A stretch of DNA of 64,000 nucleotides from Pseudomonas rhizophila (GTDB lineage: Bacteria; Pseudomonadota; Gammaproteobacteria; Pseudomonadales; Pseudomonadaceae): positions 1,275,898 to 1,339,897 of the forward strand of contig NZ_CP024081.1 in assembly GCF_003033885.1 (NCBI RefSeq), in the 5' to 3' direction. The translations under genes and the position numbers were made by a program. Positions 31,888 to 49,316 of the stretch are shown here, piece by piece. The notes under the pieces were generated by a model, which ran no database searches, was not told the DNA's origin, and saw only the letters and a program-made list of their open reading frames with translations. Within the stretch, counting starts at the first letter, position 1; every line of letters starts with the position of its first letter.

Positions 31888-31978
31888 GGAGAGCTGGCCG
31901 AGTGGCCGAAGGCGCTCCCCTGCTAAGGGAGTACACCTCAAAAGGGTGTCGGGGGTTCGAATCCCCCGTTCTCCGCCA
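31888..31978 (+). tRNA. tRNA-Ser(GCU)
   Basis: 91-nt class II tRNA with a long variable arm. Acceptor stem GGAGAGC / GTTCTCC, anticodon loop CTGCTAA in stem CCCCT..AGGGG region (anticodon GCT), T arm GGGGGTTCGAATCCCCC, encoded CCA. Confidence 0.97.
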
Positions 31979-32044
31979 TTATTTATTTAGTGCGACGTAA
32001 TCTGGCTTTATCGGTAAGTTATTGAAATTACTGAAAAAAAGCGC

Positions 32045-32072
32045 TTTACAAAAAGATTCGGCGACCTATAAT
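32045..32072 (+). promoter_or_regulatory. sigma-70 promoter of the tRNA-Arg pair
   Basis: TTTACA (32045-32050), 16 bp, TATAAT (32067-32072), followed by a GC-rich discriminator (GCGCGGC), usual for stable RNA promoters. Confidence 0.78.
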
Positions 32073-32086
32073 GCGCGGCAACAAAT

Positions 32087-32163
32087 GCACTCGTAGCTCA
32101 GCTGGATAGAGTACTCGGCTACGAACCGAGCGGTCACAGGTTCGAATCCTGTCGAGTGCACCA
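32087..32163 (+). tRNA. tRNA-Arg(ACG), copy 1
   Basis: 77 nt. Acceptor GCACTCG / CGAGTGC, anticodon loop CTACGAA (ACG, read as ICG), T arm with GGTTCGAATCC, encoded CCA. Confidence 0.97.
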
Positions 32164-32235
32164 TTTAAGAGTTTTTTGCAGTGATGCAAATAACTTGGCT
32201 TCAACCAGTTGTGATCTGGTATAAAACCACAACTT

Positions 32236-32312
32236 GCACTCGTAGCTCAGCTGGATAGAGTACTCGGCTACGAACCGAGCGGTCACAGGTTCGAATCCTG
32301 TCGAGTGCACCA
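32236..32312 (+). tRNA. tRNA-Arg(ACG), copy 2
   Basis: Identical in all 77 nt to copy 1, after a 72-nt spacer. No separate strong promoter is seen, so the two are probably one transcript. Confidence 0.97.
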
Positions 32313-32321
32313 AACACCAAA

Positions 32322-32349
32322 AAGCCCGCGTTTAACGCGGGCTTTTTGC
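32322..32349 (+). terminator. terminator of the tRNA-Arg transcript
   Basis: Stem AGCCCGCG (32323-32330) / CGCGGGCT with loop TTTAA, then TTTT. It lies at the end of the convergent gene at 32353 and may serve both strands. Confidence 0.87.
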
Positions 32350-32352
32350 TGT

Positions 32353-32856
32353 CTACGATTTGCCTTTCACGCACCCTTTCTCATCGAACACGATCTCTGC
32401 GCTGCGACCTTTTTTCGCTTTGTAGGTATATCGCGTGCTCGAATTCCTGATTTTGACCGAGTCGGGTCTGCCCAGGGCGCTTTCCACGTCCTGCTGGCTC
32501 ATGCCACTGACGACTCGCTGGTTCATGATCGCTTCGCGGCGTTGCCTGGCATTGAGCAGGTTGCCACAGCGGTCTTCGAGTTGGCCGACAACAGTCGGTT
32601 CCTTGCGGTTGGCTTTGTTGCCGAATGTTTGCCGAAACTCTGCTTCGGGCAGCATGGCCTCTGTCATTGGCTCGGCCCTGCCCGGGCTGGTCGGATGGAT
32701 CTGCTGAAGTGACAGGGTTTCTTCCTGTCGGCAACTCAGGGTGGTAAAGGTCACGTGCCCGGCGGTATTTTCGCAGCGATGCACGCTTTGCCCGGCAGCC
32801 CCCAAAGGCAGGCAGGGCAGGGCAGCGAGTAAAAACAGGTAGCGACTGACGAGCAT
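32353..32856 (-). CDS. secreted/envelope protein with DUF4124-like N-terminus
   Basis: 167-residue protein with a signal peptide (MLVSRYLFLLAALPCLPLGAAG) followed by a DUF4124-like segment (VHRCENTAGHVTFTTLSCRQEE), a variable linker, and a C-terminal segment (MNQRVVSGMSQQDVESALGRPDSVKIRN) resembling the SmpA/OmlA-type beta domain. It is probably periplasmic. No specific function is known. It is monocistronic and convergent with the tRNA genes. Confidence 0.75.
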   Translation of the reverse strand: MLVSRYLFLLAALPCLPLGAAGQSVHRCENTAGHVTFTTLSCRQEETLSLQQIHPTSPGRAEPMTEAMLPEAEFRQTFGNKANRKEPTVVGQLEDRCGNLLNARQRREAIMNQRVVSGMSQQDVESALGRPDSVKIRNSSTRYTYKAKKGRSAEIVFDEKGCVKGKS

Positions 32857-33178
32857 CCTGACGTCCTCCTTGACGGTGAAGAAAAGAAGGTTAGCCGCTA
32901 CATTTTTACCGGGGCGTGTGTTTTCTTTTCAGGATAAGTCGTCGTAGGCATAGAGGTTCAATCTGCGTTCAGGTATGTCTCGCAAGCGCTTGTTCTTGCC
33001 ATGATTTTTTAACGTTTTAAAGCGTCAAGCGGTGTATGATTGCGCCCGTCAGCCCCGCCGGGGCTTGTGGAATATCCCATGGACTTACCCAGTAGTTACT
33101 CAATATCTCGTTTTACCAATCATGAACTGACTGATTGATCCTTCCGGCGTGCTCCACTGCTGGGAGTGGAGTTCGCCT
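32857..33178. other. intergenic region upstream of mgtE
   Basis: 322 bp between divergent genes. AT-rich around 33003-33030 (TTTTTTAACGTTTTAAAGCG) with a possible -10 (TATGAT, 33034-33039), followed by a short hairpin GCCCCGCCGGGGC (33052-33064) in the would-be leader of mgtE. No magnesium riboswitch of the known classes was recognised and no gene is seen. Confidence 0.4.
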
Positions 33179-34621
33179 ATGACCGAAATAGAAGTAAAGA
33201 AAACGCAGGAAAGCCTTCAGGATCGCCTTGCTCAAGTCGTTGAGCTGCTGCATCGCCAGCGGGTGGTCGAAGACCTGACGCATCGCCAGGAAGGCCCGCA
33301 TCACGACCTGGTCGAGAACCTGGTCCACCGGCAGAATCTCGTCGAGCTGCAACGCAAGCTCGATGACCTGCACTCCGCCGACGTCGCCTACATCCTTGAA
33401 GCCTTGCCGCTGGAAGAGCGTCTGACGGTCTGGCAGTTGGTCCAGGCGGATCGTGACGGTGACATCCTGCTTGAAGTGTCCGACTCGGTTCGTGAAACCC
33501 TGATCGCTGACATGGATGATCACGAGCTGCTGGCGGCGGCCAAGGAAATGGACGCCGACGAACTTGCCGACCTTGCGCCCGAACTGCCACGGGACGTTAT
33601 CCACGAACTGATGGAAACCCTCGACGGCCAACAGCGCGAGCGCGTGCGTTCGGCGTTGTCCTATGACGAGGAGCAGGTCGGTGCGCTGATGGACTTCGAG
33701 ATGGTGACCATCCGTGAGGATGTCAGTCTTGAAGTGGTATTGCGTTATCTGCGCCGTCTCAAGGAGTTGCCGGGGCATACCGACAAGCTCTTTGTGGTGG
33801 ACTACGACGGTGTGCTTAAGGGCGTGCTGCCTATCAAGCGATTGCTCGTCAATGATCCGGAAAAGCAGGTAGCCGAGGTCATGGCCAGTGATCCGGTGAG
33901 TTTTCATCCGGACGAAGATGCCTACGATGCGGCCCAGGCGTTCGAACGTTACGATTTGATTTCTGCGCCCGTTGTCGACAAGAACGGCAAGTTGATCGGC
34001 CGTCTGACCATCGACGAAATGGTCGACCTGATTCGTGAGGAGAGCGAAAGCGAAGTCCTCAATATGGCCGGTCTGCGCGAAGAGGAAGACATCTTCGCCT
34101 CGGTCTGGAAGTCCCTGCGTAACCGTTGGGCCTGGCTGGCGGTCAATTTGATCACGGCTTTCATCGCGTCCCGGGTGATCGGCTTGTTCGAAGGCTCCAT
34201 CGAAAAACTGGTGGCCCTTGCGGCGCTGATGCCTATCGTTGCGGGGATTGGCGGTAACTCCGGCAACCAGACCATTACCATGATCGTCCGCGCCATGGCG
34301 CTGGACCAGGTCAGTACCGGCAATACATCGCGATTGATGCGCAAGGAACTGGCCGTGGGCTTGATCAACGGTCTGGTTTGGGGTGGTGTGATCGGCGTGG
34401 TGGCATACCTGCTGTATGGCAGTTGGTCGCTCGGAGTAGTGATGACCGCCGCGATGACGCTCAACTTGTTGTTGGCGGCCTTGATGGGGGTATTGATTCC
34501 CATGACCCTGGCTCGAATGGGGCGTGACCCCGCCATGGGGGCCAGCGTGATGATTACCGCCATGACCGACAGCGGCGGATTTTTCATCTTCCTGGGGTTG
34601 GCGACGATTTTCCTGCTCTGA
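33179..34621 (+). CDS. mgtE: magnesium transporter MgtE
   Basis: 480-residue Mg2+ channel. N-terminal MgtE_N domain (about residues 30-135, with acidic Mg-sensing positions in ADMDDHELLAAAKEMDADEL), two CBS domains (about 140-265; VMASDPVSFHPDEDAYDAAQ and SAPVVDKNGKLIGRLTIDEM) and five C-terminal membrane helices including the conserved PIVAGIGGNSGNQT pore segment. Start at ATG 33179 with GGAGTGGAG upstream. Terminator directly after. Confidence 0.96.
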   Translation: MTEIEVKKTQESLQDRLAQVVELLHRQRVVEDLTHRQEGPHHDLVENLVHRQNLVELQRKLDDLHSADVAYILEALPLEERLTVWQLVQADRDGDILLEVSDSVRETLIADMDDHELLAAAKEMDADELADLAPELPRDVIHELMETLDGQQRERVRSALSYDEEQVGALMDFEMVTIREDVSLEVVLRYLRRLKELPGHTDKLFVVDYDGVLKGVLPIKRLLVNDPEKQVAEVMASDPVSFHPDEDAYDAAQAFERYDLISAPVVDKNGKLIGRLTIDEMVDLIREESESEVLNMAGLREEEDIFASVWKSLRNRWAWLAVNLITAFIASRVIGLFEGSIEKLVALAALMPIVAGIGGNSGNQTITMIVRAMALDQVSTGNTSRLMRKELAVGLINGLVWGGVIGVVAYLLYGSWSLGVVMTAAMTLNLLLAALMGVLIPMTLARMGRDPAMGASVMITAMTDSGGFFIFLGLATIFLL

Positions 34622-34635
34622 TTCGCGCTTCAAGA

Positions 34636-34661
34636 AAGCCCGCCAATTTGGCGGGCTTTTT
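34636..34661 (+). terminator. mgtE terminator
   Basis: AAGCCCGCC / GGCGGGCTT stem with 5-nt loop AATTT and five T. Confidence 0.88.
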
Positions 34662-34698
34662 CGTGGGCGCCGGAAATCTCTGTCACCAAATGCCAGGC

Positions 34699-34726
34699 AA
34701 AAAAAAGCCAGCACAAGGCTGGCTTC
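34699..34726 (-). terminator. amrZ terminator
   Basis: On the minus strand AGCCAGC / GCTGGCT with loop CTTGT, followed by eight or more T; starts 17 bp after the amrZ stop. Confidence 0.87.
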
Positions 34727-34742
34727 AATATCTTGGATGCTA

Positions 34743-35069
34743 TCAGGACGCGTCTGCGGTCATTTCTACGTCATGGGCAATCAGCGAAACTAGAGCGTTT
34801 TGCTGGCGATGAGAGAGTTGTCGGAATCGTTGAAGCAGCTCGCGTTCATGCAGTGACAGCTCTGGGCTGTCCAGTCGCATGCTGAGCTCTTCACCCAACG
34901 CACCTTCCTGAATAAGGCTTTGCTCAAGGCGCGCGATGATTTCGGAGTTCATGCTGCGGTGATGATTGCGAGCCACCTCGGCAATGCGTTCCCGCATTCC
35001 GTCTGGCAGACGTACGACGAACTTGTCAGCCGTACGGCTGGAATAAATTGCCTGTTTCATTGGGCGCAT
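34743..35069 (-). CDS. amrZ: ribbon-helix-helix transcription factor AmrZ (AlgZ)
   Basis: 108-residue Arc/MetJ-type regulator. The DNA-binding segment is [36 protein letters not shown] (residues 10-45, shown in parts: the beta strand KFVVRLP contacts DNA), and the C-terminal tetramerisation part ([34 protein letters not shown]) is nearly identical to P. aeruginosa AmrZ. In pseudomonads it controls alginate, motility, biofilm and c-di-GMP genes and represses itself. ATG at 35069 follows the family start MRP-KQ; no strong ribosome site precedes it. Confidence 0.94.
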
Positions 35070-35593
35070 ATATTTAACCGGTTAGTTCAGGGGAGCGGTT
35101 CTCGGGATTGGCCGCAGGATGTCGATAGGACAAGCCCCTTAGCCAAATGTTCAACCTGAATTGTTAAGAGGCCCGCATCATGCCTCAAAATTGCCAGATC
35201 ATTGGCGCCAATTCTGTGACAAATATTGATCCGCGTAAAGGCGTTATGCCAGTACCCTTCGTCAAAAATGCGGACTGGTTGGAAAAAATTCCAGGTCCGC
35301 ATCTTGTGACCACTGCATCGTGTCGATGTGCCATACCGTCTGGCGGATAACCATGACGCAGGCGGCGGCGCGATGCTGTCCTTGTATTGTATAGGATAGT
35401 GGCGATTTGCCGATTTACTAGAATGAGCAGGGTGGGCCAGATGAGCGGCGGTCCGGTCCAGGCTCTTCGATGGGAGACTTGGCGAACGGTACATTTGCCT
35501 ACACTTAAAAAGCCATGGACGACATGACAAACGCCAGGCTGACCGTTAACATGCACGCCGTCCAACGCACCGCGTTTCTCGTGGTCGACTTGT
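35070..35593. other. amrZ upstream region, no gene seen
   Basis: 524 bp between divergent amrZ and tRNA-Arg(CCU). It holds a perfect 12-bp palindrome ATTGGCGCCAAT (35201-35212), which may be a regulator site, AT-rich stretches near 35219-35230 and 35384-35400 (TTGTATTGTATAGGATA), and an AACCGGTT palindrome at 35075-35082 right before amrZ. Short open frames here lack ribosome sites and family resemblance. Confidence 0.45.
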
Positions 35594-35670
35594 GTCTCAG
35601 TAGCTCAATTGGATAGAGCATCCCCCTCCTAAGGGGAAGGTTGGCAGTTCGAACCTGCCCTGGGACACCA
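35594..35670 (+). tRNA. tRNA-Arg(CCU)
   Basis: 77 nt. Acceptor GTCTCAG / CTGGGAC, anticodon loop CTCCTAA (CCT) in stem CCCC/GGGG, T arm with AGTTCGAACCT, encoded CCA. tRNA-Arg(CCU) genes are frequent integration sites; the accessory CDI locus begins 357 bp downstream. Confidence 0.97.
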
Positions 35671-37733: not shown

Positions 37734-37772
37734 ATACAGCCTTTTTAAAAACTGCTGCAACGAGACTTGATC

Positions 37773-40700
37773 ATGGACGACCGTCAATACGCCTTCCTGG
37801 CCCGCCAGCCTTCTGCTGCCGTGCAAACCCGCGAGCACTTCTGGGGCATGCCCAAGCGCGGCCTGGCGTTCCTGTTGGCCAACGTCATGTTCTGGCAGCC
37901 GATGTGGGCCCAGGCGGGCGGCATCGTGGTCAGCGCCCCGGGCACCAGCCTCGGCCAGGCCGGCAATGGCGTGCCGGTGGTCAACATCGCCAAGCCCAAC
38001 GGCAGCGGCCTGTCCCACAACCAGTTCAAGGATTACAGCGTCGGCAGCAACGGCGTGATCCTCAACAACGCCACCAACGCCGCCCAGTCCACGCAACTGG
38101 GCGGGATCATCCTCGGCAACCCGAACCTCAAGGGCACGGCCGCCAAAGTCATCCTCAACGAAGTCAACGGCGGCAACCCGAGCCAGCTGCGTGGCTACAC
38201 CGAAGTGGCGGGGCAGTCGGCCCATGTCATTGTCGCCAACCCTTATGGCATCACCTGTAATGGTTGCGGGTTTATCAATACCCCGAAGGCGACCCTGACC
38301 ACCGGCAAACCGATTATCGAAAACGGTCAGTTGAGTCGCTATCAGGTCGACCAGGGCAGCGTTGCGATCGAAGGCGCAGGCCTCAACGCCAACAACGTCG
38401 ACCGTTTCGAAATCATCACCCGCAGCGCGAAGATCAATGCCGAGATCCAGGCAAAGAATCTGACAATTATTGCCGGTCGTAACGACGTCAACGCCGATAC
38501 CCTCAATGCCACCGTCCGTGCCGACGACGGCAGCGCCAAACCGCAACTGGCCATCGACTCCTCGGCCTTGGGTGGCATGTACGCTGGCACCATCAAACTG
38601 GTGGGCACCGAGGCCGGGGTCGGGGTCAAGCTCGACGGCAAGATGGTCGCCAGTGGCGGTGATATCCAGCTTGATGCCAATGGTCATTTGAGCTTGGCGC
38701 AAACCACGGCGGCAGGCGCCGTCGAGATCAAGGCTCAAAGCCTGGACGCCCAAGGGACGATGTATGCCGGCAGCCATGTTCAGGTGACAACCAAGGGCGC
38801 TCTCAGCAACCAGCGCGCTATCGCGGCGCGCGAGAAGGTCACGCTGACCACCGACGGCCAGCTCAACAACCTTGGCATCATCGAAGCAGGCGTCAACGTC
38901 GATAACACCCGCAACCAGATTGGCGATGTCGTGCTGACCGCGGCGAACATCGACAATCGCGGGCAGAACGTGATCGCCAGTCGCGACTTGAAAGCCACGA
39001 CCACGCAGACCCTCGACAATCGCGGCGGCACTTTTTCCGCCGGCAAGAGCCTGACGCTCGACAGCAAAGACATCGACAACCGCGCCGGCACGCTGGTCAG
39101 CCAAGACAACATTCAAGCAGTGGCCACTGGAGCCTTGGATAACCGCGATAAAGGGATCATCGTCAGCGACGGCGAGCAGACTCTGATCGCCGGGACGCTA
39201 AAGAACAGCGCAGGCGTTATCAGCAGCCACAACTTCCTGAAGCTCGAAGCGAAAACCCTGGATAACAGCGGCGGCAAAATTGCGTCCGACGCCGCACTGA
39301 CCCTTGGGGGTGGTAGCGCTGAAAATAGCGCAGGACAAATCACCAGCCAGGGTGATCTCGTTGCCACGCTGAAAAGCTTCAACCAGCAGGACGGCAAGGT
39401 GGTCAGCCAGGGGAAACTTACCCTGACCGCAGACCGCATCAACAACAGCGACGATGGCTATATCGCCTCGGTCAAGGCCATGAGCCTGACCGCTCACCAG
39501 CAACTGTTCAATAACAATGAGGCGATCATCAGCACCGAACAGGGGCTGACGATCAACGGCGGTGGTCTCGATAACACCAAAGGTAGCCTGCTCAGCCAGG
39601 GTGACCTGAAGGTCGATATCACCGGGGATTTCGTCAACCGGGATGGCAGCGCCATTACCCAGGCCGGGAACGTGGATGTCGAGGCGAACAGTCTCGATAA
39701 CCGTGGCGGTGTTCTTGCCAGTGTTGGCGGTTGGCTGAAAGCTGAGTTGAACAAGGTGTTGGATAACGGCGAGTCGCTCACCTCCGCTGGCGAGGCCGGG
39801 TTGATCCAGGCGCAGTCCGTCAATCTCGATGCGAAACAAGCGGTGCTCAACAATGGTGGGCAAATCTCGGCCTTGTCCGGGAGCGCCGAGCTCACTACCG
39901 CTACGTTCGAGAACCGCAACGGTGCAGTGCTCGCCAAACAGGCCCTGACGGTGCGTGCCCAGGATCTGGACAACAGCGACGGACGCGCCGCGGCAAACAC
40001 CGTTGATTTCGGGTTGACCGGGGCGCTGAACAACCAGCTCGGTCTGGTCGAAGGTTCCAACGGCCTGCTGATCACGGCCGTATCGATTGATAACCAGGGC
40101 GGTAAGTTGCGCTCAGTGGGCAAGCTGGGGACCGCGACGCTAACGGTTGATCAACTGCTGGACAACCAGGGCGGCGTCATTGAAGCGGCTACCCAGGACC
40201 TGTCCTTGCAGATGGCAGGCTTCAAGAATGCTGACGGCAATGTTCGTCATGTGGGCACCGGCATGTTAGGCGTGGACCTGGCCAGGTTCAGTAACATCGG
40301 CGGCAGCCTGATGACCTCAGGCACCCTGACCGTCGACGCGGCGCGTTGGGACAACAGCTCGGATATCCAGGCCAATGTCCTGAACCTGAAGGTGGACCAG
40401 CTCAATCAGACCAGCAGCGGCAAGTTGGTCGCGGTGCAAAGCCTGCTGGCCACGGGCGGCACCTGGAATAACGCGGGCACCATCAGCAGCGACGTTGATT
40501 TGGATCTGAAGCTGACCGGCGCTTATGTCGGTACCGAAAACAGCCGCCTCAGCAGTGTCGATCAATTCGATCTGAGCGCCGCCAGTATCGATCTCTCCAG
40601 CGGCTCGCGCCTGGCTGGCGGTGGCACCACCACCGTCACCAGTCTCGGTGCATTGAACAATGCCGGACGGATCACCGGCGGCGGCAAATTCTCCCTGGCC

Positions 40701-43700
40701 GCCACGAGCCTGGTCAATACAGGCACACTGGGCGGCGCCGACACCGTCGAACTGGTTGCCAACGAGGCGCTCAACGATCGCGGTCTGATCTTCAGTGGCG
40801 CGGACATGGCCCTGCGTTTCAACCGCTTCACCAACTATCGTGCGGACGTCTACAGCCTGGGGGCGTTGAATGTCGCGGCACGAGATGGCGTCGCTCGCAG
40901 CACGTTGCTGGAGAACATCTCCGGCACCCTTGAATCGGCCAAGGACATGTCGCTGCGCAGCGACACCTTGATCAATCGCAAGGACGTTTTCTCCACCACC
41001 GATGAGCTGGTGTCGGGCTCCATCAGTGTCAAATGTTATGACTGCGGTGGTGACCACCACAACGTCGACTATATAGCCCGGGAGACCTACCAAAGCGCAG
41101 TGCTTGAAGACTCGGCCAGTGCCACCCTGATGAGTGGGGCGAAACTGACCGTTGATGGCTCTGCGGTGACCAACCAATACAGCGTGATGGCCTCGGCCGC
41201 CGACCTGCTGATTACCGCAGACAACTTCGCCAACGTTGGCGCCGTTTCCGGGACCAGCGTCAGAACGCGGACCTGGAATACCGGCCGGGTCACCGATGGC
41301 ACCGATGAGCGTTTCCGCGCCAGGATCATCGTCCCTTACAACGCCCAGGCCAATCCGAAACAAGTGCCGGTAGATGCGCTCAACTCCTTCCGTCAGATAG
41401 GCGACATCACCACCGTGACGCCTGGGGAGTCGCTGGCGCCCGCGGTTGTTCAATCGGGCGGCGACATCAGCATCCAGGCTACCCAGCGGCTGGAGAACAG
41501 CAGCATCGTGCAGTTCCAGGCGCCGCAGGCCGGAGCGACCAAGTCAGCGGCCACCGATGTGGCCGACGCCGCACAGCCAGCAGTCGTGGTGCTCAACCCG
41601 CAGCTACCGCCTGATCTGGCCCAACAACAAGTCAACCCGACCACCATGCCCGGGTTCACCTTGCCGACTGGCGAGAATGGCTTGTTTCGTGTCGTCGACA
41701 GCGCGGCCGCAGCGCAAAACAGTCATGACCAAAGCCAGGCCACTGTCCAGGGTTCGGCCGCCAGCCGGGTCATCATCGGCCCGAAATACCTGATTGAAAC
41801 CAACCCCGCGCTGACCGACCTCAAGCAGTTCATGAGCTCGGACTACCTGTTGGGCAACCTGGGTTATGACCCCGACACCAGTTGGAAGCGCCTGGGCGAT
41901 GGCTTGTACGAGCAACGCCTGATCCAGCAAGCCGTGATCGCCCGCACCGGCCAACGCTTTCTCGATGGCCAGACCTCCGACGAAGGCATGTTCAAGTACC
42001 TGATGAACAACGCCATCGCCAGCAAGGAACAACTGAACCTGGCCGTTGGCGTGACCCTGACTTCGCAACAAGTCGCCGCGCTGACCCACGACATCGTCTG
42101 GATGGAAGACCAGGTCGTCAATGGTCAACATGTCCTGGTGCCGGTGCTTTACCTGGCCCAGGCCAACAACCGGCTGATGGCCGATGGCGCGTTGATCCAA
42201 GGCAAGAACCTCACCCTGATTGCAGGCACCGACCTGAAGAACGCCGGGACGCTGCGTGCCAGCGAGAACCTCTCGGCGGCGGCCGGGAACAATCTGGTCA
42301 ACACGCGCCTGGCCGAGGCTGGTGAGCGGCTCAAGTTGGTCGCGGGCAAAGACCTGGTCAACATGCAAGGCGGCATCCTCAAGGGCAAGGACGTCGAGCT
42401 GTCGACCTTGACCGGCGACATCCGCAACGACCGGACCATTAGCACCATCGAAAACAGCGGCAAGGGCTTCAGTTCGAAGACCTCCGTTGTCGACAATGCT
42501 GCGCGTATCGAGGCCGGTAACAATCTCACCATGCGTGCAGCGGGCGATTTGCTCAACGTGGGCGGCGCGATTACCGCGGGCAACAACGCGGACTTGAGCG
42601 CGGGCAACGACGTTGTCATCTCCGCGGCTCGCGAAGAAAGCGGCTCGATGCGCCAGGACAAACGCCACTTCTGGGAGCAAAGCCAGACCGTTCAGCACGC
42701 CAGTGAGGTCAAGGCGGGTGGCAACCTGAACGTCACCGCCGGCAACAACCTCACTGTTGTCGCCAGCCATCTCCAAGCCAAAGGCGATATCAACCTGAGC
42801 GGCAACGATGTCGCCCTGATCTCGGCGGCGAACGAGGAGTCCAGCGAATACCGCTACAAGCGCAGCGGCAAGAAGATCAACAAGGAAGAGGACCATGTCT
42901 CGCAGCAGGCGACCACCCTCGATGCTGGGGGGGATGTAAGGGTTGCTGCGCACAATGATCTGTTGATGGTCGCGAGCAAGATTGCGGCGGGTAACGCGGC
43001 CTATTTGGTGGCGGGGAAGCAGCTGAGTCTGTTGGCTGAGCAGAATCGTGATTACTCGCTGTATGACATGAAGAAAAAAGGCGGTTGGGGCAGCTTGAAG
43101 ATGCGGCGCGATGAGGTGACACAAATCACCCATATCGGCAGCCAGATCCAGACGGGAGGCGACCTGACGCTCAAGAGTGGCGATGACCAGCGCTACCAAG
43201 TCGCCAAGCTGCAAAGCGGGAAGGACCTGATACTGGAAAGTGGCGGCGCCATCGTCTTCGAAGGCGTGAAGGATCTGCACGACGAAAGCCATACGAAGAC
43301 CAATAACAATGCGTTCTGGAACTCCGCTAAGGGCAAGGGTAATACTGACGAAACCCTGCGCCAGACGCAGATGGCGGCGGCGGGCAATATCACCATCAAG
43401 GCAGTCGAAGGTCTGAAGATCGACATCAAGCATGTCGATCAGAAAACGGTCAGCCAGACCATTGATGCGATGATAAAAGCCGATCCGCAACTGGCCTGGA
43501 TCAAGGAAGCCGAGCAGCGCGGTGACGTGGACTGGCGGCAAGTAAAGGAGATCCATGAGTCCTTCAAATACAACACGTCGGGCTTGGGGCCGGCTTCACA
43601 ACTGATCATCGCCATTGCCCTCGCGGCCGTTATGGGGCCGATGATGGCTGGCATGAATACCATGGTTCAGGCCGGAGCAATCAGCGTCGCGACCAAGGCG

Positions 43701-45539
43701 ACGGTCAGTACCATCGACAACCGAGGAAACCTCGGCGCGATTGCCAAGGACGTTACTTCCAAGGAGAGCCTGAAAGGGTATGCCGTCTCGATAGCTACGG
43801 CAGGGGTTGCCCAAGGGCTTGGCTATGACGCTAGCACGGTTGGCTTCAATGCCGAGAGCGTAAAGACAGTCGCTATGAAAGTGGCTGCGGATGCTGCGAT
43901 TAAAACAGCGGTGTACGGAGGCAGTTACCAAGACAACTTAGCAACTTCGTTGGCTGGAACGGCGGCCAGCATTGGTGGAGCGTATGGCGCCGGAAAAATC
44001 GGCGACTTCGGTCTGGCCGAAGGCAGCTTGGAAGCGATTCTGCTTCATTCGGCCTTGGGCGGATTGATGGCGGAAGTCATGGGAGGAGACTTCCGTACAG
44101 GAGCAATAGCGGGCGGGGCAAACGAGGTTCTTATCGGTTTGCTGGGGGATACGCTCCTGCCCTCGCATCTGGAGCCCGGTACACCTGAATACACTCGGGC
44201 CCAAGAGAATCTGGTCGCACTTTCAAAAGTTGTCGGCGTACTAGGCGCTGCGGCATCCAATGGAGATCTGGACGTTGCCGCGCAAGTGGCGGAAAACGGC
44301 ACGCGTTACAACTTCCTCGGAGACCACTCCCAAGCGGAGCGAGACAGAGCTCTCAAGGAGTATGAAGAAACCAAGAGCCTGGACGCCGCCAAAAAGATGA
44401 TGGTGCTCCAAGGCTCGGACCAGCGTAGCGATGCGTTGTTGGAGCGTTTTCACACCGATCCCGCGTCGCTTTCTCCGGCAGAGAAAACAGAGCTGGGCGC
44501 TTATCTTCAGGTCTACGGCTACGAGCAAAGCCAGGAACACGGGGTGGAGGCTGCTCGCACGAGCATCAATAATCTGCTTAAAAACGGACCGGATCCATAC
44601 CGAGACTACCCGTATGCGGGCGGTACTACCCAGGAGCGAATTGCCTACGCCGACGACCTGAGAGCTCGGGACGGCGTGTCGGTGGCCAACATCTTTTGGT
44701 CCAGGGACCAGAGCGCTAGCGAAATGCTGTACCGCGATGCTGAGGGTTACCTGCGCATCAATCGTGAAATGCAGGCGATGAGTGACGTGGGGTCACCTGC
44801 TCTGTATTTCCTGACCGGAAATCTCGGCACTACGATTCGGGTCGCAGCTGCGGCGAATGGTGCACTCCAAGCAGGACACGGTGCGGGCCAGGTCTACGAT
44901 GGTGATACGTGGAATGGCATCGGCAACATTGTGGTCGGCGCTATGAATGCGGCGAGTCTTGGGGTGCCGAGGATTGGGGCATCTGGACGGGGTAGTGCGA
45001 GTCAAGGTGCTAAAGACTCTGGCAGTTCCAGTGTGCCTAAAGTTCCAGCCGACCCTGTAGTAGTGCGCAGCGACAATGATTTTTCTTTATCTGTGGGGGG
45101 AAATGGAAAGCCAAAGGCCTACATTAAAGAGAATGGCGATTTGGTACCCCCTAATCTTGAGGGGACAGGCAGCATTCAGACACATGTGCGCGGAGGCGGT
45201 TCTGAAAATTCTCCGTACATTTCTGTGACCGACCCGAGAGTGTCATCCAATCCTAAAGATTACGGCTCTCAAAAAATAGAAATCGACGTCAAGCGATTGC
45301 AGCAGGATATAGATTCTGGTGTATTACCAGACACAAAGTTTTTGAGCAATCGTGAGGTCGTTGCTGAGCTTCAGGCTAGGGTAAATGCCGCGCGGAATAA
45401 ATACACAAGCAACCCCAGCCCAAAAAATGAGACTTCATTGAGCAGGGCGGAGTCAGACCTGGTGAACGTGATGCGTGATGGTGAGTGCTTGATCAAGGGT
45501 TGTGTACCGGCCGGCTATATTAAATTCATTCAGAAATAG
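37773..45539 (+). CDS. cdiA: CdiA-type filamentous hemagglutinin / contact-dependent inhibition toxin
   Basis: 2588-residue exoprotein. Long signal peptide (to about residue 48, ending MFWQPMWAQA), TPS/hemagglutination activity domain (about 50-290; NKF-like NQFKDYSVGSNGVILNN, ANPYGITCNGCGFINTP), long filamentous repeat region (N-x-GG-L and DNRGG units to about residue 1150), a second filament section (about 1450-1880), a DUF637-like segment (about 1930-2050; AIALAAVMGPMMAGMNTMVQ) and a pre-toxin region. A VENN-like border, VAENGTRYN, is at residues 2172-2180. The last 160 residues have an R-S-E pattern (R2432 or R2473, S2484 in YISVT, E2571 in DGECLIKG) followed by VPAGYIKFI, resembling ADP-ribosyltransferase folds; this toxin class is inferred. 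An in-frame TTG lies 6 bp before the chosen ATG. Confidence 0.9.
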   Translation: MDDRQYAFLARQPSAAVQTREHFWGMPKRGLAFLLANVMFWQPMWAQAGGIVVSAPGTSLGQAGNGVPVVNIAKPNGSGLSHNQFKDYSVGSNGVILNNATNAAQSTQLGGIILGNPNLKGTAAKVILNEVNGGNPSQLRGYTEVAGQSAHVIVANPYGITCNGCGFINTPKATLTTGKPIIENGQLSRYQVDQGSVAIEGAGLNANNVDRFEIITRSAKINAEIQAKNLTIIAGRNDVNADTLNATVRADDGSAKPQLAIDSSALGGMYAGTIKLVGTEAGVGVKLDGKMVASGGDIQLDANGHLSLAQTTAAGAVEIKAQSLDAQGTMYAGSHVQVTTKGALSNQRAIAAREKVTLTTDGQLNNLGIIEAGVNVDNTRNQIGDVVLTAANIDNRGQNVIASRDLKATTTQTLDNRGGTFSAGKSLTLDSKDIDNRAGTLVSQDNIQAVATGALDNRDKGIIVSDGEQTLIAGTLKNSAGVISSHNFLKLEAKTLDNSGGKIASDAALTLGGGSAENSAGQITSQGDLVATLKSFNQQDGKVVSQGKLTLTADRINNSDDGYIASVKAMSLTAHQQLFNNNEAIISTEQGLTINGGGLDNTKGSLLSQGDLKVDITGDFVNRDGSAITQAGNVDVEANSLDNRGGVLASVGGWLKAELNKVLDNGESLTSAGEAGLIQAQSVNLDAKQAVLNNGGQISALSGSAELTTATFENRNGAVLAKQALTVRAQDLDNSDGRAAANTVDFGLTGALNNQLGLVEGSNGLLITAVSIDNQGGKLRSVGKLGTATLTVDQLLDNQGGVIEAATQDLSLQMAGFKNADGNVRHVGTGMLGVDLARFSNIGGSLMTSGTLTVDAARWDNSSDIQANVLNLKVDQLNQTSSGKLVAVQSLLATGGTWNNAGTISSDVDLDLKLTGAYVGTENSRLSSVDQFDLSAASIDLSSGSRLAGGGTTTVTSLGALNNAGRITGGGKFSLAATSLVNTGTLGGADTVELVANEALNDRGLIFSGADMALRFNRFTNYRADVYSLGALNVAARDGVARSTLLENISGTLESAKDMSLRSDTLINRKDVFSTTDELVSGSISVKCYDCGGDHHNVDYIARETYQSAVLEDSASATLMSGAKLTVDGSAVTNQYSVMASAADLLITADNFANVGAVSGTSVRTRTWNTGRVTDGTDERFRARIIVPYNAQANPKQVPVDALNSFRQIGDITTVTPGESLAPAVVQSGGDISIQATQRLENSSIVQFQAPQAGATKSAATDVADAAQPAVVVLNPQLPPDLAQQQVNPTTMPGFTLPTGENGLFRVVDSAAAAQNSHDQSQATVQGSAASRVIIGPKYLIETNPALTDLKQFMSSDYLLGNLGYDPDTSWKRLGDGLYEQRLIQQAVIARTGQRFLDGQTSDEGMFKYLMNNAIASKEQLNLAVGVTLTSQQVAALTHDIVWMEDQVVNGQHVLVPVLYLAQANNRLMADGALIQGKNLTLIAGTDLKNAGTLRASENLSAAAGNNLVNTRLAEAGERLKLVAGKDLVNMQGGILKGKDVELSTLTGDIRNDRTISTIENSGKGFSSKTSVVDNAARIEAGNNLTMRAAGDLLNVGGAITAGNNADLSAGNDVVISAAREESGSMRQDKRHFWEQSQTVQHASEVKAGGNLNVTAGNNLTVVASHLQAKGDINLSGNDVALISAANEESSEYRYKRSGKKINKEEDHVSQQATTLDAGGDVRVAAHNDLLMVASKIAAGNAAYLVAGKQLSLLAEQNRDYSLYDMKKKGGWGSLKMRRDEVTQITHIGSQIQTGGDLTLKSGDDQRYQVAKLQSGKDLILESGGAIVFEGVKDLHDESHTKTNNNAFWNSAKGKGNTDETLRQTQMAAAGNITIKAVEGLKIDIKHVDQKTVSQTIDAMIKADPQLAWIKEAEQRGDVDWRQVKEIHESFKYNTSGLGPASQLIIAIALAAVMGPMMAGMNTMVQAGAISVATKATVSTIDNRGNLGAIAKDVTSKESLKGYAVSIATAGVAQGLGYDASTVGFNAESVKTVAMKVAADAAIKTAVYGGSYQDNLATSLAGTAASIGGAYGAGKIGDFGLAEGSLEAILLHSALGGLMAEVMGGDFRTGAIAGGANEVLIGLLGDTLLPSHLEPGTPEYTRAQENLVALSKVVGVLGAAASNGDLDVAAQVAENGTRYNFLGDHSQAERDRALKEYEETKSLDAAKKMMVLQGSDQRSDALLERFHTDPASLSPAEKTELGAYLQVYGYEQSQEHGVEAARTSINNLLKNGPDPYRDYPYAGGTTQERIAYADDLRARDGVSVANIFWSRDQSASEMLYRDAEGYLRINREMQAMSDVGSPALYFLTGNLGTTIRVAAAANGALQAGHGAGQVYDGDTWNGIGNIVVGAMNAASLGVPRIGASGRGSASQGAKDSGSSSVPKVPADPVVVRSDNDFSLSVGGNGKPKAYIKENGDLVPPNLEGTGSIQTHVRGGGSENSPYISVTDPRVSSNPKDYGSQKIEIDVKRLQQDIDSGVLPDTKFLSNREVVAELQARVNAARNKYTSNPSPKNETSLSRAESDLVNVMRDGECLIKGCVPAGYIKFIQK

Positions 45540-45547
45540 GGTTCATT

Positions 45548-46186
45548 GTGGATCGGAAAACCTACGACCTACTCCACGGCATACCGGATCATGCTGATTA
45601 TGCCGCCGAGGCAGGTGAGCTGGATGCCGAAGATATACCGCAGGAAAGAATGACTGCAGTGTTGGATTTGCTTCGCAATTCAGATGATGATGTTGTGCGC
45701 TTCGAAGCTGCAAAATTGTTGACTAGCTGGGGGATTTTCGAGGGGTTGGTTGCATTAAGCGAAAGCATGGAAAAGCCGGAACTTATCAAAAATACCTACC
45801 CCCACAGGTTGCATGGATACGATGATACTTATCGCCAGATCCTCATGGCTGTAACCATGTACTTCGCAAATATGGTCGACAGGGGACAAAGGGAAGTCGC
45901 TAGGGCTCAAGTTTTTTTACCACTGTCTACTATCATCGAGTTGGCAGGAACGGAACCCTTTGAAATATCTGACGCTTTCGCCTTCTTAAAGCGTGAGCGG
46001 TATCCGGAGTACATCCCGTTTGTTAAACAGCACCTCAGCTCGATAATAGATCGCCCCGAAATACATCAATGGAAAATCTACGACGCTATGGAGTTTCTGA
46101 TGGGGGTCGAGCCAGAATTCGTTATGTCTCTGCTGCAACTGAGAAACAAGAGCATCGAAGATTTTATGCCGCGGCAACGTAGCTGA
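45548..46186 (+). CDS. cdiI: probable CDI immunity protein
   Basis: 212-residue acidic, cytoplasmic, mostly helical protein starting with GTG 8 bp after the cdiA stop. The N-terminal part (RMTAVLDLLRNSDDDVVRFEAAKLLTSWG) looks like a HEAT-type helical repeat, a fold used by several polymorphic-toxin immunity proteins. No signal peptide or membrane span. Base composition is visibly more AT-rich than the upstream cdiA body and matches the toxin-tip coding region, as expected for an exchangeable toxin-immunity cassette. Identification rests on position and these traits; no family was recognised with certainty. Confidence 0.65.
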   Translation: MDRKTYDLLHGIPDHADYAAEAGELDAEDIPQERMTAVLDLLRNSDDDVVRFEAAKLLTSWGIFEGLVALSESMEKPELIKNTYPHRLHGYDDTYRQILMAVTMYFANMVDRGQREVARAQVFLPLSTIIELAGTEPFEISDAFAFLKRERYPEYIPFVKQHLSSIIDRPEIHQWKIYDAMEFLMGVEPEFVMSLLQLRNKSIEDFMPRQRS

Positions 46187-46282
46187 TTTAAGCGAGGCGT
46201 TGATGGCAGTAGAGGGGGCAGCTTGTTTGATAAGCGAAGGGGGGCGTGACATACCTATAGCGGCGCGAGGACTGCTTGCGCA

Positions 46283-46310
46283 GCCCTGCGGGAGCAAGCT
46301 CCCTTGCCAC
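46283..46310. repeat. single REP-like palindrome downstream of cdiI
   Basis: CCCTGCGGGAGCAAGCTCCC then TTGCCAC: one arm of the GGGAGC(A)AGCTCCC class without a partner. It marks the return to core-type intergenic DNA. Confidence 0.6.
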
Positions 46311-46341
46311 GAGAGCCAGTTGATTAATCAATTGGTGGAGG

Positions 46342-46785
46342 TTATAGCGGGCACCACGGGTCTTCCCCGTTTGCGCTTTCCAGGATCTTCGGAAAGTTTC
46401 GCGCGAATCCCCAGCCTGAAGCCACGGCGGTCATGGTGGTTTTGCAGGCGGGGTTCTTTTCCGAGACGATCAGGTTCATATAGAACTGGCTTCCGTAAAT
46501 TGTTGGCGCCCACAGCACCATGTCACTTCTTTCGGCGTTCCGGTCGACTTTCAATTGAATGGTGTTGACGAGTCTTGCGCCGGTGTTGAGCTCGGTTACT
46601 TGGGGGTGGAAGCAGTGGTTCAGGTAGCCTTGCACGCGTTCTTCCACCACCGCCCGCTCTTGCGTCAGGCAATACTCGGGGCTGGTTGTGCCGGTGTTCA
46701 ACAGCTCATCCTTGGAATATGGATGCAGCGAGCAGCCGCCCAGTAACAGAAAAACGACTCCTGTAAATCCCTTGTACAAATTCAA
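46342..46785 (-). CDS. putative lipoprotein
   Basis: 147-residue protein with a lipoprotein signal peptide (MNLYKGFTGVVFLLLGGC, lipobox LLGGC, lipidated cysteine at residue 18). The mature part has four further cysteines (EYCLTQ, NHCFHP, PACKTT, PWCPL), suggesting two disulfides. No known family recognised. It is convergent with the CDI operon and flanks the accessory region on its right side. Confidence 0.75.
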   Translation of the reverse strand: MNLYKGFTGVVFLLLGGCSLHPYSKDELLNTGTTSPEYCLTQERAVVEERVQGYLNHCFHPQVTELNTGARLVNTIQLKVDRNAERSDMVLWAPTIYGSQFYMNLIVSEKNPACKTTMTAVASGWGFARNFPKILESANGEDPWCPL

Positions 46786-46983
46786 GCTCCTTCTAGAAAC
46801 GGCGGTTTACCAAAGCGGATTGCGGCAAGGCGGCGGGCGGGACTATACGCAATTTTTTCGGCCTGGAACGACTAAACCAGCTCGCCGTAGGAACCGACGG
46901 AAAGAATATTCCCCATTGACTTGTAGGACATTTCCTAGAAAATTCCAGTCCCTTGCGCCTGCTGATTCCGGTGCCTAGTCTTT

Positions 46984-47208
46984 GTCCACCGCTGCCAATT
47001 AGCGGTCGGGTTTAGCAGCTCGGAATCACGTTAGGCGCATGGCAACTGCCTTCAATGCGGGCATTTTTGTTGCCCGAATTCTTATGGCAGCTATGCGCAG
47101 GGCATCCTCGGGTGCGCCGGTTTCCTAACGTACCGGTCTGCTAACCTGCGCACGGCTGCCACCCACTCGTTTAGCAGCGGACGTGGCGGCTCCCACTTAC
47201 GTTAGGGG
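46984..47208 (+). ncRNA. structured 5' leader with competing arms (putative cis-regulatory RNA)
   Basis: Central strand CCTAACGT (47124-47131) and CTGCTAA (47138-47144) is complementary both to an upstream arm, TTAGCAG (47012-47018) + ACGTTAGG (47028-47035), and to a downstream arm, TTAGCAG (47171-47177) + ACGTTAGG (47199-47206). The downstream ACGTTAGG runs into AGGGG, the ribosome site of the gene at 47215. Further helices: CCGCT/AGCGG (46989-47005), GCGCAT/ATGCGC (47035-47040 with 47093-47098), GGGCA/TGCCC (47059-47075), CCGGT/ACCGG (47117-47136, loop holding CCTAACGT), GTGG/CCAC (47183-47196). Two mutually exclusive folds with the ribosome site free or sequestered are predicted. No known riboswitch class recognised. 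Confidence 0.62.
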
Positions 47209-47214
47209 TATTCC

Positions 47215-47424
47215 ATGGACAAACTCATACCAGACCCTCCCGTTCCCCCGCTGCATCTGGACATCGCAGCCGACGCCAACGCCGAGCGTGTCATCGATTC
47301 CTATCTGAACCCCAAGCCCGCCCAGCCTGACAAGAAGCCATCCCCCGACCAGCTATTCACTGTCGTGGAGGGCATTGATGCTGAGAGCCTACAGTCCCTA
47401 ACCCAAGAGCTGGCCTTTTGTTAA
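47215..47424 (+). CDS. small DUF6124-like protein, probably C-terminally truncated
   Basis: 69-residue protein (MDKLIPDPPVPPLHLDIAAD, then RVIDSYLNP and LFTVVEGIDAESLQSLTQEL). The opening proline-rich segment and the YLNP - LFTV - ID-E-L pattern recall the Pseudomonas DUF6124 family, which as remembered is about 110-125 residues with two more helices. Here the frame ends early (LAFC, stop), and no recognisable continuation exists in 47425-47708, so the copy may be decayed. It is expressed, if at all, from the structured leader before it. The 284 bp downstream to the next gene hold nothing recognised. Confidence 0.55.
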   Translation: MDKLIPDPPVPPLHLDIAADANAERVIDSYLNPKPAQPDKKPSPDQLFTVVEGIDAESLQSLTQELAFC

Positions 47425-47708
47425 GGGCTGAACCGCCCAACCAAGCTGTTCAAGGTCACGGCCAGGCAGAGGTTAACCATGTCCCCGGTCCACCTGTTCC
47501 ATGCCCGGCAGGTAGCCGATGGGTCCCGGAACCACCTCACACAATCTCTTAACGGAACGCCATTTCCTGCCGATACCCTGATGAGCCCTGTTTTCTATCG
47601 CGTTTCGGCGCGCGAAAACGGCTAGCAATGCGCGCCACACCGGGCGGTGACACGGCGTTTCGTTGTTTTGCCATTGGGTGCATCTTTTTACTTGCCTGGA
47701 CATCCTCG

Positions 47709-49316
47709 ATGCTGGCGTACCACCAAAAAAGTTTTCTGATCGTCGATGATTTCTCGGATTTCCGCAGTTCCGTCCGGTCCATGTTGCGTGAGCTGGGCGT
47801 CAAGGACGTGGACACCGCTGACACCGGTGAAGTGGCGCTGCGCATGTGCTCGCAGAAGCGCTATGACTTTATTTTGCAGGATTATCACCTGGGCGACGGC
47901 CGCAAGAACGGTCAGCAGGTGCTGGAAGACCTGATGGTCGAGAAGCTGATCAGCCATGAAAGTGTGTTTCTCATGGTGACGGCTGAAAGCAGTCAGGCGA
48001 TGGTGCTCAGTGCGCTGGAGCATGAGCCGGATGCGTACCTGACCAAACCGTTCAATCGCTCGGGGCTGGCTCAGCGGCTGGAACGGCTGGAGCAGCGCAA
48101 GACCCTGCTCAAGCCGATCCTGCAAGCCTTGGATCGTGGCAAGCCGATGGAGGTGCTCAATGCCTGTATCGCCCTGTGCAAGCAGGATCCGCGCTACGGG
48201 CCGTTGTGTCTGCGTTATCGGGCTGATGCGCTGCGGGACCTGAACCAGAACGAAGCCCTTGAGCGGTTGTACAACACCATCCTGGCTGACCGTCCTTTGC
48301 CGTGGGCTTATGCGGGGCTGGGGAAGTTGTTGTTCAAGCGTGGCCAGGTGGGGCAGGCCAAGGATGTTTATGAGAAGGCCTTGAAAGTATTCCCGATGAT
48401 GCCGGCGTTGTATGACGGGATGGCTGAAGTGTTGGTGGCCGAAGGCGATACGAAGCAGGCGCAACACGTGCTGGAAGAGGCGGTTCGTCTATCGCCACTG
48501 GCGGTGCGACGGCAGTCGCTGCTGGGCAAGCTGGCAATGACCAACGAAGATTTCGAGACCGCGTCCAAGGCCTATCGCCAAGCGGTGGGGCAGGGCGCGC
48601 AGTCGCGCTTCAAGGACCCGGAAAGCAACCTGGGCCTGGCCCATGCACTGATCAGCAAGGGCAGCGAAAAAGGCCTGGATACCCGCACTCGGCTGGAAAT
48701 CAACACCACCCTCAGCGCCGTGGCCAAGGAAAATCTCAACGATCCTGGGTTGCAGGTGCGTGCGCGGTTGATGAAGGCCACGAGCCTGTTGCTCAACGAT
48801 GCCGAAACCGCCGAAAAGCTCACCGAGCAGGCCTTGCAGCGCCTCGACGGCATGGAGCAGTTCATGAGCGCCGAGGCCGCGTTGCTGGTGGCCAAGCAGT
48901 TGCAGATGCTCGGCCAAACCAGCGCCGGCGAGTCGATGCTCAAGAACTGCGCGGAGATCTATGGCGATGATCCGACGGTGATGCAAGGCATCGCCAAGCT
49001 GACCGACGATCCGAATATCCTCAATCAAGGCAATGCCGCCGCCGAGCTGAACCGTGAAGGTGTGCGCGTCTACAAGACCGGCGCGTTGCCCGAGGCGCGA
49101 GAGCTGTTCCGTCGAGCCCTGAAGATGCAACCGAAGAACATCAGTATTGCTTTGAACATGGCGCAGTCACTGTTGCATGGCACCGATACCAGCGTGGAAT
49201 CGGAGCTGCTGCAGGAGTGCCGCGCCTGCCTGAAACTGGTGGGCATGATGCCCGACACCGATGCGCGTTTTGCGCGTTATCAGAAACTGCGAAGCAAGGC
49301 ATTTGGCGATGAATGA
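47709..49316 (+). CDS. response regulator with TPR output domain
   Basis: 535-residue cytoplasmic protein. Receiver domain at residues 7-130 (acidic pair D13-D14, phospho-acceptor D58 in FILQDYHLGDG, K in YLTKPFN) followed by a long helical tail with several tetratricopeptide repeats (for example AYAGLGKLLFKRGQVGQAKD, LYDGMAEVLVAEGDTKQAQ, LNREGVRVYKTGALPEAREL). There is no DNA-binding domain, so the output is a protein-protein contact. Start at ATG 47709 (MLAYHQKSFLIVDD); the open frame upstream is not conserved-looking. It overlaps the kinase gene by 8 bp. Confidence 0.9.
   Translation: MLAYHQKSFLIVDDFSDFRSSVRSMLRELGVKDVDTADTGEVALRMCSQKRYDFILQDYHLGDGRKNGQQVLEDLMVEKLISHESVFLMVTAESSQAMVLSALEHEPDAYLTKPFNRSGLAQRLERLEQRKTLLKPILQALDRGKPMEVLNACIALCKQDPRYGPLCLRYRADALRDLNQNEALERLYNTILADRPLPWAYAGLGKLLFKRGQVGQAKDVYEKALKVFPMMPALYDGMAEVLVAEGDTKQAQHVLEEAVRLSPLAVRRQSLLGKLAMTNEDFETASKAYRQAVGQGAQSRFKDPESNLGLAHALISKGSEKGLDTRTRLEINTTLSAVAKENLNDPGLQVRARLMKATSLLLNDAETAEKLTEQALQRLDGMEQFMSAEAALLVAKQLQMLGQTSAGESMLKNCAEIYGDDPTVMQGIAKLTDDPNILNQGNAAAELNREGVRVYKTGALPEARELFRRALKMQPKNISIALNMAQSLLHGTDTSVESELLQECRACLKLVGMMPDTDARFARYQKLRSKAFGDE

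Follow-up and report, generated by a model that had tools for sequence, protein, structure and literature searches.

The window analysed here is a 64,000-nucleotide stretch of Pseudomonas rhizophila DNA (contig NZ_CP024081.1). On its forward strand, a leader at 46984–47215 precedes a 69-aa open reading frame (ORF), and the gene after that ORF encodes a response regulator with TPRs. Beside this unit, 37767–45539 (forward strand) encodes a 2590-aa two-partner-secretion haemagglutinin-like protein (TPS domain, DUF637, haemagglutinin repeats) and is followed by an ORF at 45548–46186 without a Pfam match; by its layout, 37767–46186 resembles a contact-dependent inhibition locus. Elsewhere the window contains an FMN riboswitch (RF00050, 25917–26084, reverse strand, 108.7 bits) and four tRNA matches within 31888–35667 (forward strand), two of which (32087–32160 and 32236–32309) score equally.

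The leader matches the C4 antisense RNA family

Two short blocks occur twice in the leader, TTAGCAG at 47012–47018 and 47171–47177, and ACGTTAGG at 47028–47035 (b1) and, within the downstream arm, at 47199–47206. A central strand composed of CCTAACGT (47124–47131) and CTGCTAA (47138–47144) is complementary to both arms. The initial annotation had described this two-block pairing with either arm and the fusion of the downstream block to the Shine-Dalgarno sequence; every block lies where it had been placed, and the AGGGG at 47204–47208 stands 6 nt from the ATG at 47215. Its statement that the leader matched no familiar class was overturned by the Rfam search that it had itself proposed. Covariance models identified 47080–47166 as C4 antisense RNA (RF01695; 78.9 bits, cut-off 45) and 46975–47026 as c4-a1b1 (RF03163, 'a1, b1 targets of C4 antisense RNA'; 50.4 bits, cut-off 46.7). 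The central strand was assigned as a'/b' of C4, the upstream arm as a1/b1 and the downstream arm as a2/b2 over the Shine-Dalgarno sequence, giving the following features.

46953–46981, forward strand: putative promoter TTGCGC-N17-TAGTCT, directly 5' of a1b1, from its sequence pattern
46975–47026, forward strand: c4-a1b1 element (RF03163), 50.4 bits
47012–47018, forward strand: a1, complement of a'; 96.1% of cells paired in helix a1-a'
47028–47035, forward strand: b1, complement of b'; 71–76% of cells paired
47080–47166, forward strand: C4 antisense RNA (RF01695), 78.9 bits
47124–47131, forward strand: b', loop of an inner C4 hairpin, anti-Shine-Dalgarno and address, from complementarity and covariation
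47138–47144, forward strand: a', unpaired strand within C4, address, from complementarity, covariation and the C4 fold
47154–47162, forward strand: 3' strand of the C4 outer stem, GGCTGCCAC, alternative partner of 47183–47191 by comparative pairing
47171–47177, forward strand: a2, complement of a'; 96.1% of cells paired in helix a'-a2
47183–47191, forward strand: GTGGCGGCT, candidate strand of an alternative (ON) hairpin in which it pairs with the C4 3' strand and a2 lies in the loop; 85.5% of cells paired
47199–47208, forward strand: b2 fused to the Shine-Dalgarno sequence, ACGTTAGGGG, from sequence, complementarity and covariation
47215–47424, forward strand: target ORF, 69 aa, C-terminally truncated DUF6124-type protein by comparison with a 113-aa relative

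The long stem, the two inner hairpins and the free a'/b' strands of the family are all present in the window. The a'/b' strands are also complementary to a2/b2, and the short ORF downstream has b2 at its ribosome site. The CCGGT/ACCGG hairpin described earlier around the central block is the inner C4 hairpin that bears b'. No antirepressor (ant) gene follows the ORF, the next gene being that of the response regulator; we take ant linkage as a trait of the P1/P7 operon rather than of the C4 RNA family. A TTGnnn-N16–18-TAnnnT pattern was found upstream of a1b1 in 122 of 140 C4 units (shuffled mean 5.15), with a 17-nt spacer in 102 units and TAnnnT lying 95–119 bases before C4 in 116 (n = 140).

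C4 matches are multiplied across Pseudomonas

The P. rhizophila genome carries 21 C4 matches above the cut-off, and at least one match was found in 275 of 298 Pseudomonas genomes. Up to 14 candidates per genome were scored in this genus survey; counted by eye, about 145 genomes have at least 14 matches, and the remaining matched genomes have 1–13. In eight chosen genomes, with up to 150 candidates scored in each, 42, 24, 35, 49, 10, 36, 41 and 7 matches were obtained; genome G035 has 19, and genome G010 has 36, one of these under the cut-off. Across the whole class, matches were obtained in 12 of 229 genomes, P. rhizophila itself among them, the other 11 having 1–4 each; none of 14 well-known control genomes matches. 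The C4 switch is thus multiplied in the genus, from one to about 50 cassettes per genome, with few genomes in which none was found.

C4 units precede DUF6124 genes and other small genes

Proteins of 71 of the 89 units were scanned: 48 match DUF6124 (PF19619), 7 match DUF3077 and 3 match Bro-N, the last three also matching phage antirepressor families. Approached from the genes, the linkage is similarly close. By comparison of positions by eye, a listed C4 lies just upstream of 15 of the 18 DUF6124 genes of P. rhizophila and of 33 of the 38 in genome G036, where two further DUF6124 genes lie behind such a gene. For named Pseudomonas genomes, 79 loci were defined as relatives of one DUF6124 protein; C4 lies immediately upstream in 19 of the 20 taken, and the remaining one (L233) has a1b1 only. 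The DUF6124 link, suggested in the initial annotation, is confirmed by these counts. The six DUF6124 genes without a listed C4 include one with a1b1 (L134), two with a1b1 below the cut-off (L133, L136) and one without any match (L138). At L133, L134, L136 and L233 an a1b1-like element stands without a C4 match, as though C4 had dropped out. L135 and L137, from two genomes, are DUF6124 genes without C4 or a1b1 that have similar upstream sequence; L137 adjoins a PrrF sRNA match (151.1 bits) and L135 a partial, below-threshold PrrF match.

The dN/dS ratio was 0.02–0.27 in 17 chosen pairs of target proteins, which are therefore under purifying selection. DUF6124 and DUF3077 targets are mostly about 85–128 aa long. 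Proteins of about 52 aa (HALNPSKIRAAAHRAMALAALHANSSL-like, as in unit L016) make up a third target family, which recurs among the top-scoring C4 units of other genomes and matched none of the Pfam families counted for unit proteins. A search of solved structures with the target protein returned no convincing relative (best E 0.069), and a text search of the literature found no paper on DUF6124 and one on DUF3077.

The 69-aa ORF of the window has no Pfam or NCBIfam match, PF19619 included. It aligns to the N-terminal part of a 113-aa relative in genome G035 (L092, the same place as unit L153), about 316 bases of which are absent in the window; in another intact relative (L048), PF19619 covers residues 47–109. 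The window target gene is truncated, and the window copy may therefore be decaying. By eye, an inverted-repeat-like stretch follows the intact G035 gene (L092, about 1100–1210) and is absent in the window together with the 3' part of the gene.

One central strand covaries with both arms

Pairing was examined in an alignment of 62 of the 89 units that had a usable start; the other 27, near-duplicates and several units with long b' loops, were excluded. In the upstream set (a1-a' and b1-b'), 83.9% of cells were paired, compared with 65.0% in shuffles, cells changed on both sides numbered 196 vs 73.0, and the score was 0.492 vs at most 0.139 when the strands were slid. The downstream set (a'-a2 and b'-b2; L016 as reference) gave 87.5% vs 67.8% paired, 209 vs 73.8 cells changed on both sides and a score of 0.510 vs at most 0.149. 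Helices a1-a' and a'-a2 were each 96.1% paired with both-side changes in 6 of 7 pairs, b'-b2 was 79–83% paired, and b1-b' 71–76%. With the window row as reference, b'-b2 was out of register (28–38% paired) because the Shine-Dalgarno sequence of the window was placed two columns off, so the reference was switched to L016. Five measures of covariation were used, and two of them, which count pairs with both-side change and further pair types, were uninformative: 13 vs 12.5 and 39 vs 39.5 in the upstream set (265 and 332 of 500 shuffles at or above the observed value), and 14 vs 12.4 and 44 vs 39.5, weakly above the shuffles, in the downstream set (92 and 15 of 500). The outer stem of C4 was 97.7% paired, with both-side changes in 9 of 12 pairs.

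An alignment-free test with fixed windows was applied to 140 of 141 units (one unparsed unit, L169, was excluded), the control being the mean of 10 derangements. All four cognate pairings were found in 99 of the 140 units, compared with 1.1 mispaired. Singly, a'-a1 was found in 133 units (mispaired mean 18.4), a'-a2 in 133 (15.3), b'-b1 in 124 (55.4) and b'-b2 in 120 (18.4); the b'-b1 test is weak alone because mispaired units already give 55.4. Both helix sets covary, and one strand therefore covaries with both arms, as the on/off layout of the initial annotation had supposed and as its proposed covariation check on homologous leaders now bears out.

An alternative helix is compatible with an ON state

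The strand 47183–47191 lies between a2 and b2. The GTGG/CCAC hairpin described earlier in this gap is present; the comparatively supported partner of GTGGCGGCT, on the other hand, is the C4 3' strand GGCTGCCAC. The resulting helix (47154–47162 with 47183–47191) is incompatible with the C4 outer stem. Across the 62 aligned units it was 85.5% paired vs 82.0% in shuffles, with both-side changes in 6 pairs vs 2.9 and in 31 cells vs 5.3. Outside the alignment the signal was moderately clear, an unbroken run of at least 7 nt being found in 61 of 133 units vs 5 of 133 shuffled. Part of this signal could reflect the likeness of 47183–47191 to the C4 5' strand.

The predicted fold of C4 alone has an energy of –46.2 kcal/mol (z –6.23), and the whole leader has a z of –3.25. 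In constrained folds of the window, the ON form (a1b1 on a'/b' plus the alternative hairpin) reached –99.5 kcal/mol vs –98.4 kcal/mol for the OFF form (C4), and the unconstrained optimum (–100.9 kcal/mol) was of the ON type. The outcome depends on the segment ends: for a slightly shorter segment, the best fold was of the C4 type and the centroid of the ON type. Over the 62 units, OFF was favoured by a median of 12.2 kcal/mol; ON was better in 10 units, and in 21 it was either better or no more than 5 kcal/mol behind. Together, the helix support and the fold energies make an ON state of the leader credible, with OFF as its probable usual default in these folding models.

Addresses are nearly private within a genome

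We asked how well each C4 distinguishes its own target from those of the other units in the same genome. By summed a'-a2 and b'-b2 energy, the own target was uniquely best in 15 of 19 units of P. rhizophila and in 32 of 40 units of G036, privacy by targets alone thus failing for 4 and 8 units, respectively; with a1/b1 added, the own partner set was uniquely best in 19 of 19 and 36 of 40. The unit sets are 19 of 21 (L059, with an unclear start, and the decayed L132 excluded) and 40 of 41 (the duplicate L089 excluded). Scoring used loop-only ungapped stacks with hand-entered stacking energies and G-U stacks set to –1.0; in 20,000 random reassignments, the observed energy sums were never reached. 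Whole-loop duplex energies with bulges had been tried and were set aside; they separated weakly, ranking the own target first in 8 of 19 and 17 of 41, as letters of the stems had entered the sums, and loop-only scoring was used instead.

Full address collisions within a genome were absent among 20, 40, 18 and 29 units of four genomes (including 30 of the 36 units of G010), a count that excluded L089, L193, the decayed L132 and the unparsed L169. Of these, L089 has the address of L088, L193 has that of L185, and L132 resembles L041 (same a', nearly identical loop); collisions are therefore rare, not absent. In 17 pairs of same-genome paralogues with at least 90% identical proteins, the C4 backbones were 0.82 alike and the b' loops 0.56, about as unlike each other as the loops of random pairs (0.54). 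Between genomes, at equal protein identity (10 pairs), b' loops were 0.85 alike.

Corresponding sites in different genomes were sought by a matching flank of 150 bases or more on one or both sides; many pairs found in this way are no true counterparts, and nine counterpart pairs were compared. The address was kept between the window unit and L153 of G035, in L060/L171 and, with one change in b2, in L048/L157. In L049/L195 and L045/L180, b1, b' and b2 had changed jointly with a' kept, and the cross-match was worse than the self-match. In L053/L158 all six blocks differ, with the upstream flank and the protein each 92% and the backbone 90% alike, and self-match again exceeded cross-match. L046/L183 differ slightly, and swapped scores were as good as cognate ones, giving no separation.

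The window unit recurs in G010 (L175) with an identical address and with different flanks within the 1.5 kb compared. The G035 and G010 copies are homologous from some 205 bases ahead of C4 through the stop codon, a sequence pattern that suggests that the cassette was moved or exchanged as one unit. At the response-regulator locus the unit is present in 2 of 30 loci only, those of P. rhizophila and G035 (about 1.5 kb upstream examined, less in L108 and L110). No clean empty site was found at this locus, the upstream regions of the other loci being too divergent for a junction.

A probable C4-type switch and its alternatives

We conclude that the leader is very probably a C4-type antisense switch, arranged as putative promoter, a1b1, C4, a2b2 and small ORF, predicted to be turned OFF by C4 and ON by a1b1, and multiplied with near-private addresses. 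A single sigma-70-like promoter would give one transcript through all of these parts. In the OFF state, the folded C4 would place a' on a2 and b' on b2 and the Shine-Dalgarno sequence, shutting translation; in the ON state, a1b1, in cis or in trans, would capture a'/b', and the freed C4 3' strand would pair between a2 and b2, opening the ribosome site. By analogy with P1/P7 and IsrK, C4 should repress the small gene, a1b1 should relieve this repression, and C4 may be processed from the transcript and act in trans, with some signal presumably flipping the switch.

In phages P1/P7, as outlined in PMC5320573, the b' loop of C4 occludes the ribosome site, a' gives specificity and RNase P trims the precursor; the operon (immI) is described as ordered c4-icd-ant (PMC8198154). 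The window shares with this system (RF01695) the fold, a'/b', a short downstream ORF with b' over its ribosome site, and a1/b1 upstream. It differs in that the window copy lies outside an evident prophage, many paralogues occur per genome, the targets are DUF6124, DUF3077 and others, and ant is absent after the ORF. IsrK of the Salmonella prophage Gifsy-1 (isrK-orf45-anrP, RF01394) likewise combines a short upstream RNA, a translationally inactive read-through mRNA, a further downstream RNA species and a small ORF, and its short RNA is described as activating the inactive mRNA in trans (PMC4825925); the isrK model, however, scores 28.5 bits at the leader, under its cut-off of 50. An IsrK-like terminator was considered as a general feature and rejected: a terminator-like site follows a1b1 in 32 of 140 units (1.7 expected) and is absent in the window; 19 of the 32 belong to the 30 best-scoring units from other genomes. 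The Group 1 sRNAs of Acinetobacter baumannii also form an abundant C4-like family within one genome, with variable a' and apparently C4-like processing, their bacterial targets being left open in the account of PMC5320573, whereas here most units come with a1/b1, a2/b2 and a target gene of their own, and the matching is nearly private. Compared by description, the CI RNA of phage P4 with seqA/seqC is similarly complementary to sites up- and downstream of itself (PMC4825925), but P4 acts via premature transcription termination.

C4 and c4-a1b1 have already been published from Proteobacteria and phages (Weinberg 2010, PMC2864571), that work having predicted C4 in Pseudomonadales too, as cited in PMC5320573, which itself presents the expanded C4-like set of A. 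baumannii. The RNA class itself is therefore known; the scale and the addressing of C4 in Pseudomonas appear to be new, no description of the expansion, the DUF6124 link or the private addressing having been found among titles and abstract starts, a search in which subscription journals mostly fell outside.

Type I toxins are usually short membrane peptides. An array of type I toxin-antitoxin pairs, with C4 as RNA antitoxin and the small proteins as toxins, would account for an antisense RNA across the ribosome site of small ORFs, for many paralogues and for private addresses, and the P1 target Icd is described as stopping cell division (PMC8198154). We nevertheless consider this reading unlikely. 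DUF6124 and DUF3077 targets, at the lengths given above, are unlike the usual toxins, PADLOC gave only two matches near E 0.01 among 71 proteins, and DUF6124 genes without a C4 match are present in both genomes checked.

A decayed prophage remnant without present function is less probable still. The family is known from P1/P7, 3 of the 71 unit proteins are Bro-N proteins of phage antirepressor families, pieces of one Bro-N unit (L038) match 32 phage records (those of the window unit match 2), the window ORF is truncated and L132 has no target ORF. Against decay as a general account stand the purifying selection on the target proteins, the retained covariation and the flanking families. For these, 80 of 115 picked ORFs around 14 of the 21 own units were scanned; the matches listed (25 of 92 Pfam, 25 of 60 PHROG) belong mostly to ordinary chromosomal families, the phage-related ones being a single phage holin and a few families associated with phages, e.g. 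GtrB and a repressor. Pieces of the 52-aa unit L016 match 15 plasmid records.

The ligand- or temperature-sensing riboswitch, thermosensor or protein-sensed leader offered by the initial annotation is not supported, and a new class of riboswitch or thermosensor is hardly credible: the window does have two folds that exclude each other and differ little in energy, but both leader parts match a known antisense family, which indicates an antisense RNA from the same leader, no Rfam riboswitch lies at 46000–48500, and concerted variation falls on the a and b addresses.

Beyond the C4-type switch itself, we tentatively raise a more doubtful possibility, that of an address-coded C4 family. Each C4 would act in trans, units of equal address would silence each other (antisense incompatibility), the six blocks would be driven to rapid concerted change after duplication or transfer, and the chromosomal set would form an immunity-like repertoire against incoming elements of the same address.

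If the units work like C4, a phage immunity RNA has become tens of natural RNA switches per cell in many Pseudomonas, and DUF6124 and DUF3077 gain a shared regulatory context. With addresses of roughly 7 + 8 nt that are nearly private and whose changes show directly when close relatives are compared, the avoidance of cross-talk among antisense RNAs of one family becomes directly testable.
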